A stretch of 24,419 nucleotides of DNA from a virus, in the IMG/VR virus record IMGVR_UViG_3300009127_000179, positions 1 through 24,419 of that record; one strand, given 5' to 3'. Below the pieces are notes generated by a model, which saw only the letters and a program-made list of their open reading frames with translations, made no database searches and was not told where the DNA came from. Position 1 is the first letter of the stretch. Each line of letters starts with the position of its first letter. The translations under genes were made by a program, and so were the position numbers. Positions 2,373 through 22,130 of the stretch are shown here, piece by piece.

Positions 2373-2771
2373 CTATAGGTCAATTACAGTCTGGTCTGCG
2401 GGCAATGCACGCTTGACGATGCGCACGGGCGGCGGCAGCACCGCTACAGACGGTAGTTCTTGCTTCTGGCGTAGCGCGTGGTGGACGTGTACTTTCAGAT
2501 CAGCCGCATTGCTCCCCGCCTTTGCCACCTCCTTGACGCCCATCCCGATGCCATCTACGACGCCAGCCGCATAGCGCAGCGCCAGCCGCCAGGTGGTCCA
2601 GGCCGTCACAGGAAGCATACCGGTCGCCACCAGTGCCCACACTCGCGCGGCGTTGCCACTCACCGCTAACATTACTTGCCAGGCCAGCCAGCATGCGCCG
2701 TATACAGCAGCCAGGCCCAGCGCCACCAGCAGCAGCCAGGCGCAAACTCGTTGTGTCGTTACACTCATCAT
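2373..2771 (-). CDS. two-helix membrane protein (132 aa)
   Basis: Last gene of the leftward operon. ATG 2771 is preceded by GGGAGGCAACGAG, nearly the same leader as that of the 272-residue membrane protein gene at the other end of the operon. Two hydrophobic helices lie at about residues 9-38 and 43-71. They are followed by a soluble, basic tail ending in a proline-rich stretch (AVLPPPVRIVKRALP). Position downstream of the FtsK-like gene suggests a partner in membrane-associated DNA transfer or maintenance, as small membrane proteins are in integrative-element transfer modules. That role is inference; no family is recognised. Confidence 0.6.
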   Translation of the reverse strand: MMSVTTQRVCAWLLLVALGLAAVYGACWLAWQVMLAVSGNAARVWALVATGMLPVTAWTTWRLALRYAAGVVDGIGMGVKEVAKAGSNAADLKVHVHHALRQKQELPSVAVLPPPVRIVKRALPADQTVIDL

Positions 2772-2796
2772 CTCGTTGCCTCCCTTTTTTGTATGT

Positions 2797-2902
2797 GGGC
2801 GGGCGGGTTATCGGTACTCTCTCTCTGACAAAAAACTCTGTTTTACTTTCTCGCGCGGGCTTCTTGCCCTGAGAGAGTATGCCACCGGCCCGCCCGCCCG
2901 CC
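2797..2902. repeat. long imperfect inverted repeat between FtsK-like and membrane protein genes
   Basis: The left arm contains GGGCGGGCGGG (2797-2807) and TACTCTCTC (from about 2815). The right arm contains GAGAGAGTA (2871-2879) and CCCGCCCGCCC (to about 2902). The arms run about 30 nt with two well-paired blocks, closing a stem-loop of about 100 nt directly after the FtsK-like stop codon. A smaller GGGC...GCCC hairpin lies inside. No T-run follows, so I do not call it an intrinsic terminator. An RNA-stabilising, attenuating or protein-binding role is possible. Confidence 0.55.
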
Positions 2903-4287
2903 TACCACGTATCTGCGTAGATACGCTGCGAATCACCGCCGTTGCCGCGTTCGTGTAGCGCGTAACCGTGAGCCATCAGACTGTCGGTCACCGTCGCAGC
3001 CTCTTTGATGCACCTCTTGGCCCTGGCGCTTCCCAGGGGGTTCAAGTCCCACTTGTCGAATCTGGTGTTCATCAACCGCCGTCCCTCGCCGTGGGCAGCC
3101 GCTACGAGGGCGCAAGCCTTTTCGTCTGCCGTGAACGGGCGGGCCACGTTGGGCAAGTCCTGGCCGATATTCTCAGGCTCGTAGTCGGGCCAGGCTGTAA
3201 ACCTGTGCTGGCCGCCATCCAGCGCCCCGAAGTCCGATTCGTCCACGTATACGCCTTGCGCCCTATGGCAAGCGCCGGGCTTGATGACATAGCAATCTCC
3301 ACGTCCCAGCAGCCGATCAGATCGCGGCGTGTTGCCGCCGACTGCCACACGGCTACTATCGGGGTCATCTACCCGAAAGGCAACCTTGCCCGTAAGATTG
3401 CGCCGCGTCGAGGGGTCATTGAACATTCCAACGGTCGGATGCTGGGTTGAGGCAAGTAAATGGCATTGCGCCGCTCGCCCTTGCGCTGCGAGTTTGCGCA
3501 ACAGATCGGCAAAGATGCTATCCGTGGTCAGTTCTTGAAATTCATCCACCACTACGATGAGACGGCCATCTTGTCCACCGGCTACGTAGCGTCTGCGCAT
3601 CTCTGAGCATGCCCAGCCCAGCGCCGCCACCGCTGTAGGCCCATCTACCGCAACAGGCCCTAACACACCAGGCAGATGCTCCACTGCCTTGAGTGATTCA
3701 CCTGCCTTGCCGTCCACCAAGACGGCTTGGTTGTTGGGGTCGGCCAGCAGTTGCACCAGCGCCGCTCGAAGCGACACTGACTTGCCTGACCCAGTACAGC
3801 CAGCCACCAGGAAATGGGCGCTTTCATCACTGAATGACGGCCTGATCACTACGCCGTTTTCACTTATGCCAGCCGTCCACCGGCCTTCACCTGGCGGGTT
3901 TTTAGAAACATCTGCCAACCTGATCATGTCCTGTGTCAGATCAGAGGGCCAACCCGCCTCCAGGCGCAACCAGCGCCCGTTCCACAATGTTAGCGGATCG
4001 CCGACAAACTCCCACGGTATCATCTGACGCAGACTGGCGCAGCTGTCACGAGTAAGAGCCTTGAGCAAGTGGCGCGTCTGTAGACCGGCCATCAACTCAA
4101 TTGCGCCAGCACGCGGGCCGGGGATGTATTCGACGTTGGTGAGGGCCACTGGCTTGCCAGTCAATACGCCACTGCTGGCGTTCTTGACGATGTAGCCCGC
4201 CCATTGCACGAGCAAGTCATCTCGTTTCTGTTGCATCGCCTCCGATGCTTGCCATTCAGCTTGCATGGCTCGTTGCCTGGTCGTCAT
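2902..4287 (-). CDS. FtsK/SpoIIIE-family DNA translocase
   Basis: The 461-residue product has Walker A GCTGSGKS (163-170) and Walker B LIVVVDEF (243-250). It also has the family stretch LASTQHPTVGMFNDPSTRRN (278-297), followed by GKVAFRVDDPDSSR and RLLGRGDCYV. These are diagnostic of the FtsK/SpoIIIE hexameric motor that pumps double-stranded DNA using ATP. It lacks the long N-terminal membrane domain of chromosomal FtsK and matches the size of short plasmid/integrative-element translocases of the TraB/TraSA kind. The neighbouring small membrane proteins could anchor it. ATG 4287 has a good site (AAAGGAG) and overlaps a degenerate upstream frame by ATGA. DNA transfer, partition or packaging are all possible; no terminase is visible here to compare. 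Confidence 0.88.
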   Translation of the reverse strand: MTTRQRAMQAEWQASEAMQQKRDDLLVQWAGYIVKNASSGVLTGKPVALTNVEYIPGPRAGAIELMAGLQTRHLLKALTRDSCASLRQMIPWEFVGDPLTLWNGRWLRLEAGWPSDLTQDMIRLADVSKNPPGEGRWTAGISENGVVIRPSFSDESAHFLVAGCTGSGKSVSLRAALVQLLADPNNQAVLVDGKAGESLKAVEHLPGVLGPVAVDGPTAVAALGWACSEMRRRYVAGGQDGRLIVVVDEFQELTTDSIFADLLRKLAAQGRAAQCHLLASTQHPTVGMFNDPSTRRNLTGKVAFRVDDPDSSRVAVGGNTPRSDRLLGRGDCYVIKPGACHRAQGVYVDESDFGALDGGQHRFTAWPDYEPENIGQDLPNVARPFTADEKACALVAAAHGEGRRLMNTRFDKWDLNPLGSARAKRCIKEAATVTDSLMAHGYALHERGNGGDSQRIYADTW

Positions 4288-4380
4288 GTCACATCTCCTT
4301 TACTCGTAACCACACCTCTGGTATTAGACAACCTGCCCGTTACTGGCAATCGTAACGCCAGGGCCTCCTTTACCACCGCC
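4284..4380 (-). pseudogene. degenerate second copy of the 80-aa gene's 3' half
   Basis: Read leftward, one frame gives KEALALRLPVTG, which matches KALALRLPAAG of the intact neighbour at 4525-4767. A different frame then gives PEVWLRVKEM, which matches PEVWLQEVEEV of the same neighbour. At the DNA level the blocks AGGCCCTGGC and CCAGAGGT-TGGTTAC are shared. The segment between them is 12 nt here against 17 nt in the intact copy, a net 5-nt loss that explains the frame change. This copy is therefore a tandem duplicate broken by at least two indels. No start codon serves the ALALRLP frame. Confidence 0.6.
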
Positions 4381-14793: not shown

Positions 14794-17442
14794 ATGCATC
14801 AGTCGTGTTTAGTTTTTGGAAAAGCGCATCTGATAAAAAGCGACATTGAGGATGCCGCAGTCCTTGAGGTGGGGGCGCGCAATGTCAATGGTTCACTGCG
14901 CAGCTATGTGGAATCACAGAAACCTGCCAGTTATGTTGGCACGGATATTATGCATGGACGGGATGTTGACATCATCTGTGATGCTGTAGATTTGGTAGAA
15001 CGGTTTGGCGCAGAGAGTTTTGATGTAATGATTTGTACATCAACACTGGAGCACATTGAAAACTGGAAGGGGGCAGTTAGCAACCTTAAGCGCGTCCTGA
15101 AACCTGGCGGCATCTTGCTGTTGACTACGCAATCACCAGGGTTTCCATATCACAATCCGCCTGACTACTGGCGCTTTACCGTTGCTGATATGCGTGCTAT
15201 TTTTGCCGATCTTGACATTGAGACACTGAAGCCAGACCCGCAAGTGCCTGGCGTGTTCATCAAAGCACGGAGACCAAGGGACTTTACAGAGCGTGATTTG
15301 GATTTGTTTGATTACCGTGTGCGGGAGGTAGAAAAGCCTGAATTAACGTCTATTATTATTCCAGTTCATAATTTGCGGGATATGACGGCGCAATGCCTAG
15401 ATAGCATTGCTCGCTGTACCTATATGCCGTATGAGATCATTCTCGTAGATAATGGCTCAACGGATGAAATGCCTGAGCACCTGCTTCATACTGAACAGTA
15501 TCCGTTGCTCATTCTTGCGAATGACGAAAACCAGAGCTATGCCGCTGCCTGTAATCAGGGATTGGAACAGGCGCAGGGAGCATATATTGTCTTTCTTAAC
15601 AATGATACTGTTGTTACAGATCAATGGCTAATGCGCATGCTGGCAGTCTTCCGCCGCAACCCCGATGTGGGCATTGTGGGACCAATGTCAAATTGTGCAA
15701 TGGCAGCTCAATTGATTGAGGACATACCTTACAAAGAAGACTTAATCGAACTGCCTGCATTCGCAGCACAGCATTATGCTGAGAACATGTCATTGAGTGC
15801 TGAGGTTCCCTTTCTGGTAGGCTTCTGTCTGTTGGTGAAGCGCAATGTGATAGATGAAGTTGGTAACTTTGATGAGGCATTTTCAAATGCCTATGAGGAA
15901 ATAGACTTTTGCTACCGTGCGCGGGGAGCGGGTTATAAATGTCATATAGCCGAAGATGCATTTATTCATCACTGGGGCAGTGCCACATTCAGACTCTTGG
16001 GCAGCAAAGAGGATTATCGGGCTAACATTGATGTCCATCAAGAGTTATTTGAGGAAAGGTGGGGAAATTGGGGAAATGAGCCGCCGATGTTGATTGAACC
16101 ACTCTGCCTGCAAGAGGCGCCAGTTGATAAAGCGCCTGAGTATCTCATCACTGGCACGGGGCGCTGTGGTTCCCGCTTCATGGCAAAGGTTTTTGCCAGC
16201 GCGGGTGTCCCCTGTGGACATGAGGCAATTTTCTCAGTGGGGGGACTAGAAGAGGCATACGGGCGAGTAAAAGGCACACCAGCAGAATCAAGCTGGATGG
16301 CTGCGCCATACTTGGATGATCCATTGCTAAAAGATGCTACTATTGTTCATCTGGTGCGTCATCCCAAACATGTAATTCAATCATGGAAGCTCTTTGCAGA
16401 TGATACACAATCAGCGAATCAGGAGTATGCCGATCTCGCTTATCGCACCATGCCAACTTTGCGGGAGTATGACAATCCATTTGATCGCGCCGCTATGTTT
16501 TACGTGCGATGGAATCAGATGATTGAGAAGTTAGCTGGTGATCGGCTGACTCGCTGGCGGGTTGAGGATGATCCGCAGGGGCTTATGGATGAGTTGGGAA
16601 TAGACACACAAGAGCGCAGGCTCTACGCTAATGTGCGAGAACACACGTATGCATCGGCGGGGCCGCTGGTGAGGTTTGAGCTTGATAAGGTGTCTAATCC
16701 TGAGATACGAACTGAGTTGCTTGAGATGTGTGACCGATATGGATATGACTTTGACGATCCGCCTTTGCCGCCGCCACAGGTCTATTGGGCTGTGCTGGTG
16801 GAGCGCGTCATTCACAATCACGCCTTGACTGGCCTGCTTGATGTAGCAATGGCTGCTGGTGCACTTGGTTATCTGCGTATCGGCACACTGTATAGCCGCA
16901 CGGACGCAGTGCGTAATTTGATTGTGCGGATGTTCCGTCAACTATCGCGCAATCCAGACGATACAATTGTGATGTTAGACTGTGACCATGTGCATCCGCC
17001 AGATATCGTTGAACGCCTGGCGGCACGCAAGGAAGGAGTGGTGGCTGCGCTGGCCTTCCGTCGTGGACCAAATTTTGAGCCAATGTTTTTCATACGCCAC
17101 GAAGATGGGCGTTTACTGAAACCTGCAACTTTTGAGCGCAAGGTCTATGAATGTGATGCCGTAGGCCATGCTGCCATCGCTATCAAGCGGTGGGTTTTTG
17201 ATGAGATACAAGAGAAACAAGACGCCAACTACTTTTGGCGTTATACCTATACTGACACCGATTGGAGCAGCAGTGAAGACATGCATTTTTGTAAACTGTG
17301 TGAAGATAGCGGTATCAAGGTGCATTGTGATTGCTCACTAGAGACGCCACACCTGCGAATGGAGCACGTTGACAGCAGCGTATGGTTCAAGCATCGAGGT
17401 GCTCATCCAGAGTTGATGAGAGAGATAGTTTCAGAATCATAG
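14794..17442 (+). CDS. four-domain glycan enzyme: methyltransferase, GT2, sulfotransferase, GT-A glycosyltransferase
   Basis: Domain 1 (about 1-160) is a SAM methyltransferase: VLEVGARN (23-30), DVMICTSTLEHIENW, and LKPGGILLLTTQSP. Domain 2 (about 184-430) is a family 2 glycosyltransferase: TSIIIPVHN, IILVDNGSTDE, FLNNDTVV (metal site near N269-D271), and NAYEEIDFCYRA. Domain 3 (about 448-655) is a sulfotransferase: GTGRCGSRFM (454-463) is the 5'-phosphosulfate loop, and VHLVRHPKHVIQSW supplies Arg522 and Ser530 of the 3'-phosphate site, eight residues apart as expected. Domain 4 (about 660-870) is a GT-A glycosyltransferase with VMLDCDHVHPP (729-732 DxD) and SSSEDMHFC. One polypeptide could add, methylate and sulfate sugars. 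It lies among tail genes, so virion or cell-surface glycans are likely targets. Confidence 0.8.
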   Translation: MHQSCLVFGKAHLIKSDIEDAAVLEVGARNVNGSLRSYVESQKPASYVGTDIMHGRDVDIICDAVDLVERFGAESFDVMICTSTLEHIENWKGAVSNLKRVLKPGGILLLTTQSPGFPYHNPPDYWRFTVADMRAIFADLDIETLKPDPQVPGVFIKARRPRDFTERDLDLFDYRVREVEKPELTSIIIPVHNLRDMTAQCLDSIARCTYMPYEIILVDNGSTDEMPEHLLHTEQYPLLILANDENQSYAAACNQGLEQAQGAYIVFLNNDTVVTDQWLMRMLAVFRRNPDVGIVGPMSNCAMAAQLIEDIPYKEDLIELPAFAAQHYAENMSLSAEVPFLVGFCLLVKRNVIDEVGNFDEAFSNAYEEIDFCYRARGAGYKCHIAEDAFIHHWGSATFRLLGSKEDYRANIDVHQELFEERWGNWGNEPPMLIEPLCLQEAPVDKAPEYLITGTGRCGSRFMAKVFASAGVPCGHEAIFSVGGLEEAYGRVKGTPAESSWMAAPYLDDPLLKDATIVHLVRHPKHVIQSWKLFADDTQSANQEYADLAYRTMPTLREYDNPFDRAAMFYVRWNQMIEKLAGDRLTRWRVEDDPQGLMDELGIDTQERRLYANVREHTYASAGPLVRFELDKVSNPEIRTELLEMCDRYGYDFDDPPLPPPQVYWAVLVERVIHNHALTGLLDVAMAAGALGYLRIGTLYSRTDAVRNLIVRMFRQLSRNPDDTIVMLDCDHVHPPDIVERLAARKEGVVAALAFRRGPNFEPMFFIRHEDGRLLKPATFERKVYECDAVGHAAIAIKRWVFDEIQEKQDANYFWRYTYTDTDWSSSEDMHFCKLCEDSGIKVHCDCSLETPHLRMEHVDSSVWFKHRGAHPELMREIVSES

Positions 17443-18302: not shown

Positions 18303-18740
18303 ATGCCTGAGCGCATAACATTCAGCGGGGGGCAGACTGAAAATGTTTACTGTGTGCCCCAGTTTATGCTTGCCGATTTGGAGAAGTTGCCTGAATATCA
18401 AGAAACGCTGGACGATTCTCCAGAAGTGGCAGAGGCCAAAAAAGAGGCATTAGCAGAGGCCAAAGAGCGGGCGGGGCTTCTGGATGCATTCAGAGACACA
18501 AAAGTGCCAAAAAAGTGGCAATTTCCCAAATCGGCGGAAGCTGAAGGGCTGAAACCAACGCCTGGCGACCGTGGGCGGATGTATGACTATATCCGGCACG
18601 GCCTACTTGTCACATCAAGGGACATACAGACTGCCCAAGCCGCGATGTGGGGACTGACAAACGAGGAGGTTAAGGCCGCCGAGGCCACGTTTTGCGCTCG
18701 CCGTCGCTGTGTTTTCCGGCGAAGAAAAGCCATTACCTGA
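18303..18740 (+). CDS. tail assembly chaperone, upstream frame
   Basis: GGGAG precedes ATG 18303. The product is helical and charged (EVAEAKKEALAEAKERAGLLDAF). It has a conserved-looking core DRGRMYDYIRHGLLVTSRDIQ and then ATFCARRRCVFRRRKAIT. That arginine-heavy tail is unlike the rest and suggests the main functional reading leaves this frame near 18690. Position between tube and tape measure genes and the overlapping second frame fit the lambda G/GT-type chaperones, which bind the tape measure during tail assembly. Confidence 0.72.
   Translation: MPERITFSGGQTENVYCVPQFMLADLEKLPEYQETLDDSPEVAEAKKEALAEAKERAGLLDAFRDTKVPKKWQFPKSAEAEGLKPTPGDRGRMYDYIRHGLLVTSRDIQTAQAAMWGLTNEEVKAAEATFCARRRCVFRRRKAIT
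18687..18696 (+). other. candidate +1 ribosomal frameshift site
   Basis: Zero-frame codons read ACG TTT TGC GCT. Slipping forward one base on TTTT keeps TTT paired and continues GCG CTC GCC. This leaves the arginine-rich zero-frame tail and enters the frame that encodes the conserved-looking extension. Phages SPP1 and PSA use +1 shifts in structural genes; this exact site is inferred. Confidence 0.5.
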
Positions 18741-18948
18741 GCCACCAGAGAGTGAAGAGGAAGCTGCGCTTCCTAAAATTCGCGTTTCAATGGCGCATGA
18801 AGAGATGGGGGCCGCGCTGGCCTATGGCATAACACCAGAGGCTTGGTATGAGATGCCAAGATGGAGCAGGTGTGCGGCTGTGGCATATTTGCGGTGTCAG
18901 AGAAAAATCTCACGGTGGCGAGAGATTTGGAGCAAAACAGAAAAGTAA
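18691..18948 (+). CDS. tail assembly chaperone extension, +1 frame (G/GT-type)
   Basis: Downstream half expressed by probable +1 frameshift: after ...EVKAAEATF the +1 frame continues ALAVAVFSGEEKPLPEPPES. It then gives IRVSMAHEEMGAALAYGITPEAWYEMPRW and a basic end. The only start candidate of its own is GTG 18709, which has no ribosome binding site. The +1 frame is open from 18658. The fused product would be about 214 residues, a normal size for G-T style proteins. A separately initiated protein is less likely. Confidence 0.65.
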   Translation, partial: FALAVAVFSGEEKPLPEPPESEEEAALPKIRVSMAHEEMGAALAYGITPEAWYEMPRWSRCAAVAYLRCQRKISRWREIWSKTEK

Positions 18949-18971
18949 TCTCACTGGTGCTGTGATGGATG

Positions 18972-19490
18972 TCAAATATGCTTCCAAGAGTTGCGATTGA
19001 GAATGGAGCCAATATTGCGCTTGCAAACATTGAACATTTTGGCAAGCTGCTTGTGGGTGTACTTACCTGTGGTATAGAGACGTCTAATCTCTTTGACCTG
19101 CTGCCGAGTCAGCTTTGCTCCTCCGCCTTTTTCGCCCCTTGGTCCTTTCCATTGGCGTCCCAATGTATCATAAGAATGTTTCATGTTTTCAGAGAGTGTG
19201 ACCCATTCCAGATTGCTTGGTCTATTGTCTCTCTTTTTGCCGTTCTTATGATTGACACACAAACCCTCTGGGCGTGCCCCGATAAATGCTTCAGCTACAA
19301 GCATGTGAATGCGCCTGGTTTGACACCAACTATTTCGGCACAGGATAACGTGAAGATAATCTTTATCTTGCGCTGGCTTCAAAATGTGACCAGCCCTTGC
19401 GCCTCTTCCTGGCTTGATTCTCTTCACTCGCCCTTCATTACTGACTTGATACCATCCTTCATAGCCAATCACGTCACGCCACTCTTCCAT
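18972..19490 (-). CDS. NUMOD4-HNH homing endonuclease, antisense (172 aa)
   Basis: ATG 19490 is chosen from two adjacent ATGs (19493, 19490) for its 7-nt spacing from GAGG. The N-terminus EEWRDVIGYEGWYQVSNEGRV is a NUMOD4 module. Next is an HNH_3 core, IHMLVAEAFIG, VNHKNGKKRDNRPSNLEWVT and LSENMKHSY. The C-terminal helix-turn-helix (AKLTRQQVKEIRRLYTTG, then KQLAKMFNVCKRNIGSILN) reads target DNA. Such free-standing enzymes nick or cut DNA and spread by repair-based homing. It lies opposite to all its neighbours between the chaperone and tape measure genes, a common insertion spot. Its own promoter and a structured leader lie upstream. Confidence 0.88.
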   Translation of the reverse strand: MEEWRDVIGYEGWYQVSNEGRVKRIKPGRGARAGHILKPAQDKDYLHVILCRNSWCQTRRIHMLVAEAFIGARPEGLCVNHKNGKKRDNRPSNLEWVTLSENMKHSYDTLGRQWKGPRGEKGGGAKLTRQQVKEIRRLYTTGKYTHKQLAKMFNVCKRNIGSILNRNSWKHI

Positions 19491-19634
19491 CATTTCACCT
19501 CTTGGATAAACGAGCAATGCCCTGCATACTTGCTAATGGTTCAACTCGCTAAGGGTTGCAATCCATCAAACAAGCACGCAGGGCATTGCCCGCAAATATC
19601 TTTTATGGATGTAAAAGGATTGCAGCCCCTTAGC
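19491..19634 (-). ncRNA. structured leader RNA with pseudoknot topology upstream of HNH gene
   Basis: On the - strand the transcript would start near 19634. Helix A pairs 19634-19617 with 19564-19548: 8 bp, a 2x1 internal loop, then 8 bp. Helix B pairs 19589-19571 with 19532-19514: 19 bp, perfect when two G-U pairs are allowed. Both wobbles are G-U on the - strand but A-C on the + strand, which points to a - strand RNA. Helices A and B interleave (A, B, A', B'), so they form a pseudoknot or are mutually exclusive. A small hairpin (UUUUA...UAAAA) lies inside. The leader ends about 10 nt before the HNH ribosome binding site. No known RNA family is assigned. Confidence 0.55.
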
Positions 19635-19640
19635 AACTTT

Positions 19641-19669
19641 ATTATATCACGTTCTGTCGTGGGGGTCAA
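19641..19669 (-). promoter_or_regulatory. leftward promoter of the HNH gene
   Basis: On the - strand TTGACC (19669-19664), 17-bp spacer, TATAAT (19646-19641): one base off consensus. It ends 5 bp before the tape measure start codon and fires away from it. It explains independent expression of the antisense endonuclease and its leader. Confidence 0.75.
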
Positions 19670-19673
19670 CTAG

Positions 19674-22130
19674 ATGGCTCAACCAAAGATCGCTGTTCAT
19701 CTAACAAGTGTGACCGCTGGCTTCCAAAAGGGATTCAAGGAAGCCACTGGCGCGCTCAAAGGCTTTGGTGCTACCCTCAAGAGTGTAGCTACCTTCGCTG
19801 CGGGTCAAATCGTGGCGCGTGCCTTCATAGGCATGTTCCGCAAAGTGACACAACTGGGCAAGGGCTTCATCATGTCTGCTGCCCGCGTAGGTGAGATGAC
19901 GGGTGTGTTGCGTCATCTTGGTGAAGCACATGGTTACACCTCAAAACAGATGGATGATTTTGTTGAATCCGTCAGGGAAGTAGGCGTCCGGGCCAGTGTA
20001 GCACAAGACCTGATATCACAATTCATAAAAGCCGAGTTAGATTTAGCACAAGCGGCAGATATAGCCAAAGTAGCTTTGGATGCTGGCGTGTATGCGTTTG
20101 CTGATTCCTCTGAGACATTAGCACGTCTCACGTATGGTATTGCGACTCACAATACACTGGTGCTCCGCACTGCTGGTGTGATGATTAATGCTCAGCAAGC
20201 CTATACTGAATATGGCAAGACGATTGGCAAGACAGCAAAACAACTCACCGAAGCCGAAAAAACACAGGCCATGATGAACGCCGTACTGAAAGAAGGTGAG
20301 AATATTGCGGGTACTTATGATGCTGCAATGGCAGAACCCGCCAAGTTACTGCGTTCATTTCCGCGCTATTTTGAGGATATTGGGATCGCTGTAGGTAAAT
20401 CATTTATAAAGCCATTTGGACAGGCTTTGTTCACGGCCAAAGAGTTTACAAAAGCATTGCAGACAGCAGTCAGTGAGGGTGGCAGTCTTGCTCCTGCGCT
20501 GGAAAAACTTGGTCAGATAGCTGCCGACTTAATGGGAAATTTGGTAAAGTGGGCCGAACTTTGGCTTGAGAAGTTACCACAGACTGAGGAAGAATTTGAG
20601 GCAGTCGCCACCAGCATTGAGGGATTCAAGCAGAGCATCAAAGACACGGGTGATGCTGTTGTGCTCTTTGCCGCTGATGTAGCAGGGGTGTTCAATGTGC
20701 TGCGCCACGGCTTCAGGGCATTGCATGCGCAGGCGGAAGCCTGGGGTGAATTCATGCTGGGATTGTTCCCCGCGCTAGGTGACGGTGTTACAGCTTTAGC
20801 TTCTGGCTTTCAAGGTATCGGCGCAGCAATACAGGGCAATCGTGAGGAAGCGCTAGACTATCTGCAAACGATGTATGATTCCTTTGGCAGAATGCGTGAC
20901 TATGTCAGTTCGGTTGCACAACATCAAGTAGATGCCTTTGCTGCCGCCGGAACTGCGGTGAATGACGCCTTTGGTGAAGGCCAGCAGGCAGTCATGGAGC
21001 GGTTCTGGCGCACGGCTACCGATGAAGCTGAGCAGTCTGCACAGGATATGGCCCGCGCGGTTGATGCTGCCGCTGCTCGTATTGAGCTTGCCAATCAAGA
21101 AATGGCAGAGAAGATTGAGGAGATCAATACAGAAGTTCAGCAGAAAATCGCCGCCATCACTGTCCGTGAGACCTGGAAGGCGATAGATGCACAGATAGCA
21201 GCGCAGCGTAAACTGATTGATGAGGAGCGGGCGACAGCCAAGCGTCGAGCACAGATTCAGCAGCAATTCACCGCTGCGATGGCTCAGGCGCAAGCGCAGT
21301 ATAGCGCGGCTACCACGCAGGCTGCCAGGGACAGGGGCGAGCGGCTGGCTGATATTGAATATGAATATCAGAAACGCCTACGTGATATCCAGCGCAATTA
21401 TCAGCAATCAGCAGAAGAAGCTATCCGCAACCGTGATGCGCGCGCCCTCATGGAGGCTGGACGCCAGCGCGACCGCGAGTTGCAAGAGGCAGGGGAAGCG
21501 CGGGATGAGCAAAACGCCGAGGCGCAAAGTCAATATCAGAAACAGCTTGAACAAGCGCAAATGGCATTGCAACAACAAGAGGAAGCGGCCCGTGAGGGCC
21601 TGCGTAAGCAGCAAGAAGAACTAGCAGCGGCGCTGGCAGAGAGGGCAGAGGAGGAACGCATAGCTGAACAGCGCGCCGCCGAGGATGCTGAGCGGGCGCG
21701 GGCACGCGAGATGGGGGCAATCAGAACGTGGCAGGGCCAGGTGCTCGGAGAAGCCATGACTGCACATCAGGCAGAACTCACTGAGTTGCAATTACATCAT
21801 GGCAAAATGTTGGCTGAAAGGAATCGCTATCTTGCTGCGTTTGGTGTTAGACCAAGCGGGCGAACAAGTGTGCAGGAGATGCAATATGGCGGTTCTGGCA
21901 TCGTCACTCAACCCACTGTATTCGTAGCTGGTGAGGCAGGCCCAGAGCGGTATTCCTTCACACCGCTGGGAGGGGGGGGAGGTTTTTCTGGTGGCGCAGG
22001 CGGCAGCCGCATGACTGTGAATCAGAACCTTAACTTCTCTGGTCCTATTGGCGCTGATCAGATGACACAACTGCGAGAGATGATGCGAGAAGCGTCAGAA
22101 GAGGCAGTTGCGGGGATGTTGGGAGGCTGA
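19674..22130 (+). CDS. tail tape measure protein (818 aa)
   Basis: The N-terminus AQPKIAVHLTSVTAGFQKGF and FIGMFRKVTQLGKGFIMSAA, then a helical region with SKQMDDFVESVREVGVRASV, are typical of TMP-family phage proteins. Residues about 445-690 are an alanine/glutamine/glutamate/arginine coiled coil (LQEAGEARDEQNAEAQSQYQ and EERIAEQRAAEDAERAR). The C-terminus has VTQPTVFVAGEAGPER, a common TMP end motif, a glycine-rich linker and an amphipathic helix. Tail length tracks its length; at about 1.5 angstrom per residue a tail near 120 nm would follow. The start has only GGGGGT as a weak ribosome binding site, perhaps because the endonuclease unit inserted just upstream. Confidence 0.88.
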   Translation: MAQPKIAVHLTSVTAGFQKGFKEATGALKGFGATLKSVATFAAGQIVARAFIGMFRKVTQLGKGFIMSAARVGEMTGVLRHLGEAHGYTSKQMDDFVESVREVGVRASVAQDLISQFIKAELDLAQAADIAKVALDAGVYAFADSSETLARLTYGIATHNTLVLRTAGVMINAQQAYTEYGKTIGKTAKQLTEAEKTQAMMNAVLKEGENIAGTYDAAMAEPAKLLRSFPRYFEDIGIAVGKSFIKPFGQALFTAKEFTKALQTAVSEGGSLAPALEKLGQIAADLMGNLVKWAELWLEKLPQTEEEFEAVATSIEGFKQSIKDTGDAVVLFAADVAGVFNVLRHGFRALHAQAEAWGEFMLGLFPALGDGVTALASGFQGIGAAIQGNREEALDYLQTMYDSFGRMRDYVSSVAQHQVDAFAAAGTAVNDAFGEGQQAVMERFWRTATDEAEQSAQDMARAVDAAAARIELANQEMAEKIEEINTEVQQKIAAITVRETWKAIDAQIAAQRKLIDEERATAKRRAQIQQQFTAAMAQAQAQYSAATTQAARDRGERLADIEYEYQKRLRDIQRNYQQSAEEAIRNRDARALMEAGRQRDRELQEAGEARDEQNAEAQSQYQKQLEQAQMALQQQEEAAREGLRKQQEELAAALAERAEEERIAEQRAAEDAERARAREMGAIRTWQGQVLGEAMTAHQAELTELQLHHGKMLAERNRYLAAFGVRPSGRTSVQEMQYGGSGIVTQPTVFVAGEAGPERYSFTPLGGGGGFSGGAGGSRMTVNQNLNFSGPIGADQMTQLREMMREASEEAVAGMLGG

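Follow-up and report, generated by a model that had tools for sequence, protein, structure and literature searches.

Few selfish genes of phages are commoner than those for HNH homing endonucleases, yet what is known of how their expression is controlled comes mainly from the T-even phages, in which RNA structure in the leader of homing endonuclease messages controls translation (PMC2988022). The T-even leaders are single hairpins that mask the ribosome site on read-through messages and are removed by late promoters. The hairpin of seg43(25) is very stable and lies just upstream of a free ribosome site, where its effect was left undetermined (PMC2988022). Another described structure, the int-alpA RNA (RF02996), has a 5′ helix and an apical loop that pairs with a strand located a short distance upstream of the start codon. 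In the 5′ leader of T4 gene 32, an autogenous mRNA pseudoknot controls translation. We found no description of structured leaders of NUMOD4-HNH genes in the open-access literature.

Here, we analyzed a 24,419-base IMG/VR virus record with a tailed-phage late region (the whole stretch is called the window below). An HNH gene lies on its minus strand at 18972 to 19490 and encodes 172 amino acids from the ATG at 19490, with a second in-frame ATG at 19493. The protein matched phrog_59 (HNH endonuclease; 2e-48), and its closest solved structure was that of an HNH homing endonuclease (PDB 1u3e; 3.5e-16). Pfam found only NUMOD4 (1.2e-12) and HNH_3 (6.1e-14) above the cut-off and no RuvC, in agreement with the first-pass annotation, which had described a small NUMOD4-HNH enzyme without a RuvC domain. 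The gene is antisense between a tail chaperone-like gene (18709 to 18948) and the tape measure gene (19674 to 22130). Two relatives whose tail tube genes are 55 to 56% identical to that of the window (L005 and L006) lack an HNH gene ahead of the tape measure gene. The window gene is thus an insertion, with the DNA at 18949 to 19673 as the extra segment by this comparison. Judging by its domains and its insertion, the gene is a free-standing NUMOD4-HNH homing endonuclease, for which DNA cutting is predicted.

Several other features were recorded. Overlapping ORFs ahead of the tape measure gene of the window (18303 to 18740 and 18709 to 18948) possibly encode a tail assembly chaperone via programmed frameshifting. 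An 882-amino-acid late-region ORF (14794 to 17442) reads like a methyltransferase-glycosyltransferase fusion, parts of which are 32 to 50% identical in the relatives L004, L005, and L006. Near the left end, a gene for an FtsK/SpoIIIE-like translocase (2902 to 4287, minus strand) is oriented opposite to the structural genes. On a single viral contig, L002, four NUMOD4-HNH matches form a tandem array (2440 to 4325).

The HNH gene of the window has its own predicted sigma-70-type promoter. The −35 element TTGACC (19664 to 19669, minus strand) and the −10 element TATAAT (19641 to 19646, minus strand) are separated by a 17-bp spacer, match 11 of 12 consensus bases, and point at the HNH gene. This pair had been reported previously, and we found in addition that the −10 element is extended (TG). 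Promoter calls based on six-base patterns are approximate. The predicted transcript start is at ∼19635. From there, the minus strand carries, in order, A, a small hairpin, B, A′, B′, a Shine-Dalgarno (SD)-like sequence, and the ATG at 19490. The 5′ strand of helix A (19617 to 19636), located at the predicted transcript start, pairs with A′ (19546 to 19564), which lies in the apical region of the B hairpin, to give 10 plus 8 bp around a 2×1 internal loop (−31.8 kcal/mol). The small hairpin between A and B (19600 to 19616, minus strand; UUUUA/UAAAA) appeared in the folds of nascent prefixes. B (19569 to 19593) pairs with B′ (19510 to 19534), which ends 19 nt before the ATG, in 25 consecutive pairs that include five G-U pairs and no mismatch; the B strand can also fold on itself (GGGC AAU GCCC). 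The SD-like AGAGGTG (19496 to 19502, minus strand) lies 7 nt downstream of the B hairpin. Both of the inverted repeats that the first-pass annotation had placed upstream of the HNH gene in A-B-A′-B′ order were confirmed, and the observation proved stronger than claimed. For helix B, the 19-bp core with two G-U pairs was retained, while 19 bp as the full length gave way to 25 bp with five G-U pairs.

The longest helix on the plus strand of the leader was 12 bp, compared with 25 bp on the minus strand, and the longest among 1,000 dinucleotide shuffles was 16 bp. The minus strand of the leader had a folding z-score of −5.3, compared with −3.9 for the plus strand, and the interleaved helix pair beat 40 of 40 shuffles. 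Helix B was similarly asymmetric toward the sense strand in other leaders (33 versus 13 bp in L061 and 27 versus 10 bp in L082), and in eight leaders taken together it contained 31 G-U pairs and zero mismatches.

A DNA search for the window leader in phages and for the 17-mer of A′ in viral contigs returned no copies, and the window HNH used alone as bait in genome contigs retrieved no confirmed relative. In a first set of homologues (L008 to L018), folding z-scores revealed no clear window-like leader, and L007 and its relatives were the first to give the signal. Of the HNH relatives found, the nearest were L248, whose HNH is 49% identical to that of the window, and L363, which is 79% identical to L248. 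Their HNH genes are likewise antisense to their neighbors, and promoter, A at the transcript start, B, A′, B′, SD, and ATG follow in the identical order with other sequences. L248 has the promoter TTGACA-N16-TACAAT, a 16-bp helix A (GGUUGUCACACAUCGG/CCGAUGUGUGACAACU), a 13-bp helix B (AGCGCCAUUGGCA/UGCCAGUGGCGCU), and the SD AAAGGAG, whereas L363 has the promoter TTGACA-N17-TAGAAT, a helix A of 19 bp, and a helix B of 10 bp; p was 0/200 shuffles for the interleaved helices of each. The position of A relative to the −10 element is common to the window, L248, and others. Between L248 and L363, helix A differs by three compensatory pairs with zero mismatches, a result that 56 of 500 shuffles reach, and these changes, which come from two distinct sequences, are supportive only.

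A sister group (L061, L082, L230, and L122) could be aligned by sequence. In this alignment, helices A and B were paired in 99.1% of cells, and 14 of 28 pairs had changed on both sides, which none of 500 shuffles reached. Sliding the partner strand by 1 to 3 columns destroyed the pairing (a shift of one column reduced it to ∼43%). As read from these substitutions, the alignment shows that both interleaved helices are kept at the RNA level in the sister group. Base-by-base alignment of the window leader was possible with no other leader, so its helices rest on architecture and not on covariation of their own; the location of A′ within the apical region of B recurs across leaders. The first-pass annotation had proposed that the HNH strand encodes a real RNA, naming loss of the helices among HNH relatives as a result that would count against it. 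We found instead that the plan recurs in HNH relatives and covaries in the alignable groups, which upholds the proposal.

To survey the feature more widely, we collected 240 non-redundant HNH leaders from phages, viral contigs, and bacterial genomes. Each was scored by its best interleaved helix pair in the 180 nt before the start, relative to 40 dinucleotide shuffles, which is a coarse test. All 40 shuffles were beaten by 41 of the 240 HNH leaders but by only 12 of 209 leaders of other genes, 10 of 236 upstream control stretches, and 8 of 230 downstream control stretches (30/675 for the pooled controls; Fisher, 5e-9). Most HNH leaders were without the feature by this test. A canonical geometry filter (loop L1 of at most 45, loops L2 and L3 of at most 15, and the B′ end 3 to 35 nt before the start) retained 26/240 HNH leaders and 2/209 other-gene leaders, although the Fisher value (6e-6) is optimistic because the filter was chosen after the first cases. 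No antisense leader that beat all shuffles had the canonical geometry. Under a stricter control, in which leaders had at least 90 nt free of ORFs, the counts were 17/88 for HNH genes and 0/40 for the controls (Fisher, 0.0014). Presence of the leader did not cluster on the HNH tree, which was poorly resolved and based on few columns (31 changes, compared with 33 for shuffled labels). Clade-restricted inheritance was thus not supported, and the interleaved leader could have several origins.

In 15 of the 26 canonical leaders, a −10 element (TATAAT type or TATATTTG) was located 0 to 14 nt before A. The expectation was 4.3 at random positions and 1.1 from other HNH leaders, and none of 2,000 draws reached 15; therefore, the RNA typically starts at A. 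The sequence TATATTTG, which resembles the −7 promoter element of Bacteroidota, was present in 25 of the 240 HNH leaders (3.2 expected), and this excess suggests that many HNH genes carry their own promoter.

According to nearest-neighbor folding, which is blind to pseudoknots and proteins, A and B as whole helices compete in the window. When the growing transcript was folded, A-A′ formed once A′ had been made and was replaced by B-B′ at ∼65% of B′; in the full-length transcript, B-B′ alone was stable (−70.6 kcal/mol). Because of the order of synthesis, A-A′ is the first fold and B-B′ the later one, and the same succession was predicted for L061, L082, L230, and L122, while the two folds were close to balance in L248 and L363. 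In L061, L082, and L230, 0 to 2 nt separate A from a B of 24 to 33 bp, so the complete helices can hardly coexist there. Thus, the interleaved order described in the first pass was retained, but one static pseudoknot of full A and full B is unlikely and was rejected on loop lengths for these three leaders.

The SD of the window was predicted to be largely open in both folds (accessibility, 0.60 and 0.55), and SD masking was rejected for this leader. Elsewhere, keeping B from B′ lowered the predicted SD accessibility from 0.77 to 0.05 in L122, from 0.74 to 0.33 in L082, and from 0.87 to 0.33 in L230, an effect of pairing between the SD region and B′ or its flank. Three further leaders (L036, L062, and L077) are small pseudoknots in which a hairpin loop pairs with the SD. 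Their last 50 to 70 nt before the HNH start contain a 10-bp hairpin with a 7-nt loop perfectly complementary to the SD (CUCCAAU/AUUGGAG and CUCCAAC/GUUGGAG are pairs of this type), and in L036 and L062 a −10 element stands just before the hairpin. A T-run of at least 4 was present at the B′ end in 12 of the 26 canonical leaders (1.8 expected; 0 of 2,000 draws). In the window, B′ is followed by TTATCC with a T-run of 3 across the stem end and no run of at least 4, so the hairpin-then-T-run arrangement of a transcription attenuator is absent. With the SD open in both folds and no T-run, the window leader by itself shows no switching output, and any output there must differ from the translational switch that can be read in the relatives.

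Our computations thus established a promoter, interleaved helices on the sense strand, a recurring plan, and covariation in the alignable groups. The window element is probably a cis-regulatory two-state leader that limits the HNH endonuclease, although we infer both the effect and its direction. It would be the 5′ leader RNA belonging to a selfish endonuclease gene that inserted antisense into a late operon of the phage, with A and B as alternative folds that act as a switch or kinetic timer, keeping the nuclease low or restricting its timing. A-A′ would form first on the nascent RNA, after which B-B′ would replace it or a partial pseudoknot would hold both. The output would differ from one branch of the family to another. 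In L122, L082, and L230, the state that forms first may hide the SD: the B′ left free by A-A′ is predicted to make the SD less accessible, and pairing of B with B′ to release it. In L036, L062, and L077, a hairpin loop would itself pair with the SD. About half of the canonical leaders have a B that looks like an intrinsic terminator. For the window, the effect might come from the very stable hairpin next to the ribosome site, from RNase processing, from a protein that binds the leader, or from transcription. A bistable or pseudoknotted leader that restrains the endonuclease is the reading we consider best and reasonably likely, with its output in the window a matter of conjecture. The switch between two folds or autoregulatory leader raised in the first-pass annotation gains support from the recurring plan in HNH relatives and from covariation in the alignable groups. 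Moreover, the recurrence of one plan in different letters suggests a widespread undescribed RNA switch for such genes, and phages of several bacterial phyla carry two-helix leaders with promoters of their own, which points to self-restraint as a general property of these genes.

We consider it unlikely, if still worth weighing, that the leader is a static protective or processing element, in which the 25-bp B hairpin stabilizes the 5′ end of the message or serves as an RNase III site and no switching occurs. Long perfect duplexes commonly serve as substrates of RNase III, B-B′ is the only stable fold of the full window transcript, and the open SD in both folds is equally compatible with a static hairpin. 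However, a simple hairpin needs no helix A, which is conserved and covaries independently, nor the recurrent placement of A′ in the apical region of B.

Somewhat less probable is that the window leader is a divergent int-alpA RNA, with the same fold and job and a sequence that has drifted past detection. The leaders we collected include long-B forms (the window, L248, L363, L061, L082, L230, and L122) and int-alpA-like forms (L011, L032, L041, L057, L058, L079, and others), the latter with the plan A-UA-P2-GAA-P3 (loop = B)-CU-A′-B′. L011, from Deep-sea thermophilic phage D6E, aligns with RF02996 over its full length and scores 31.2 bits, slightly under the gathering threshold of 35.8. A model (R1) built from five HNH leaders that fit this plan (L011, L032, L041, L057, and L079) and three Rfam-type sequences showed covariation in 12 of 14 pairs and found two further HNH leaders out of sample at the expected place (L322, E 4e-6; L080, E 0.007). 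RF02996 itself occurs directly upstream of an HNH endonuclease in L329 (1501 to 1565; 51.9 bits). The window leader, in contrast, scored with neither RF02996 nor R1. It shares with int-alpA the interleaved A-B-A′-B′ order ending shortly before the start codon but lacks the UA, GAA, and CU junction letters, the first two of which are present in L011, L032, L041, L057, L058, and L079. Further, RF02996 adjoins prophage ORFs, directly upstream, at loci L333 to L354, and it was found in 30 of 229 sampled genomes from the class of G001 (the genome of L179, Pseudomonas japonica). Because it stands directly before prophage ORFs, whose start codon comes soon after the pseudoknot strand, RF02996 has the appearance of a 5′ leader. 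The link to HNH leaders thus gives RF02996, which is listed as an sRNA, a plausible role as the 5′ leader of mobile-element genes.

A separate trans-acting small RNA with its own promoter and terminator, for instance, a partner of the HNH enzyme or an RNA directed against incoming relatives, is improbable. The promoter and the terminator-like end of 12/26 canonical leaders are in keeping with it, and there is a precedent in RAGATH-18, a structured RNA beside TnpB that proved to be a guide RNA (PMC11061315). Yet small NUMOD4-HNH enzymes are built to bind DNA and lack RuvC, the window RNA is directly followed by the SD and ATG without a T-run, and int-alpA RNAs precede unrelated genes. We give very little credence to release of the leader as an RNA that acts in trans with the HNH enzyme itself, as partner, guide, or immunity RNA; if true, NUMOD4-HNH homing endonucleases would be a new kind of RNA-associated nuclease. 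Least probable of all is a DNA-level element (an operator, an endonuclease site, or a cruciform), since the near-palindromic character of B and B′ (GGGCAATGCCC) and the recurrence of A-like motifs in the window leader are outweighed by G-U pairs that, in window helix B, all favor the sense strand and none the other and that accumulate without mismatch in the B helices of the eight leaders.

Compared with known systems, the leader resembles HEARO and the IscB omega RNA in being a structured RNA upstream of an HNH-domain gene. A likeness to HEARO had been noted in the first pass and a guide-like RNA or ribozyme suggested, with group I intron models named for comparison. An Rfam search of 18900 to 19800 up to E = 10 gave two chance matches and no HEARO, group I, or ribozyme match, and across the window, curated and permissive thresholds gave chance matches only (mir-95 and sR42). 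The 172-amino-acid protein has neither RuvC nor a bridge helix, and no guide-like variable end was identified in the window RNA; these readings were not supported. Like the window leader, int-alpA RNA has the interleaved order, and in our data it directly precedes HNH and other prophage genes. It differs in its three-way junction, conserved UA, GAAAA, and CU letters, and short helices, none of which the window has, and by its sequence the window leader is not a detectable int-alpA member. The T4 gene 32 pseudoknot also sits in a 5′ leader; the window helices are much longer and partly exclusive, with no protein ligand known. Closest in setting are the T-even leaders (I-TevI, I-TevII, I-TevIII, segB, Aeh1 mobE, and Aeromonas phage 25 seg43), which, like the window, place a structured RNA upstream of the start of a mobile endonuclease, with a promoter near the endonuclease gene in both. 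The T-even pattern of a masked SD was found in L036, L062, and L077. In the window, unlike the T-even phages, the RNA starts at its own promoter, two helices are interleaved, and the SD is not masked. Thus, structured leaders of homing endonucleases are already known, and what differs in the window is the combination of its own promoter with interleaved helices.
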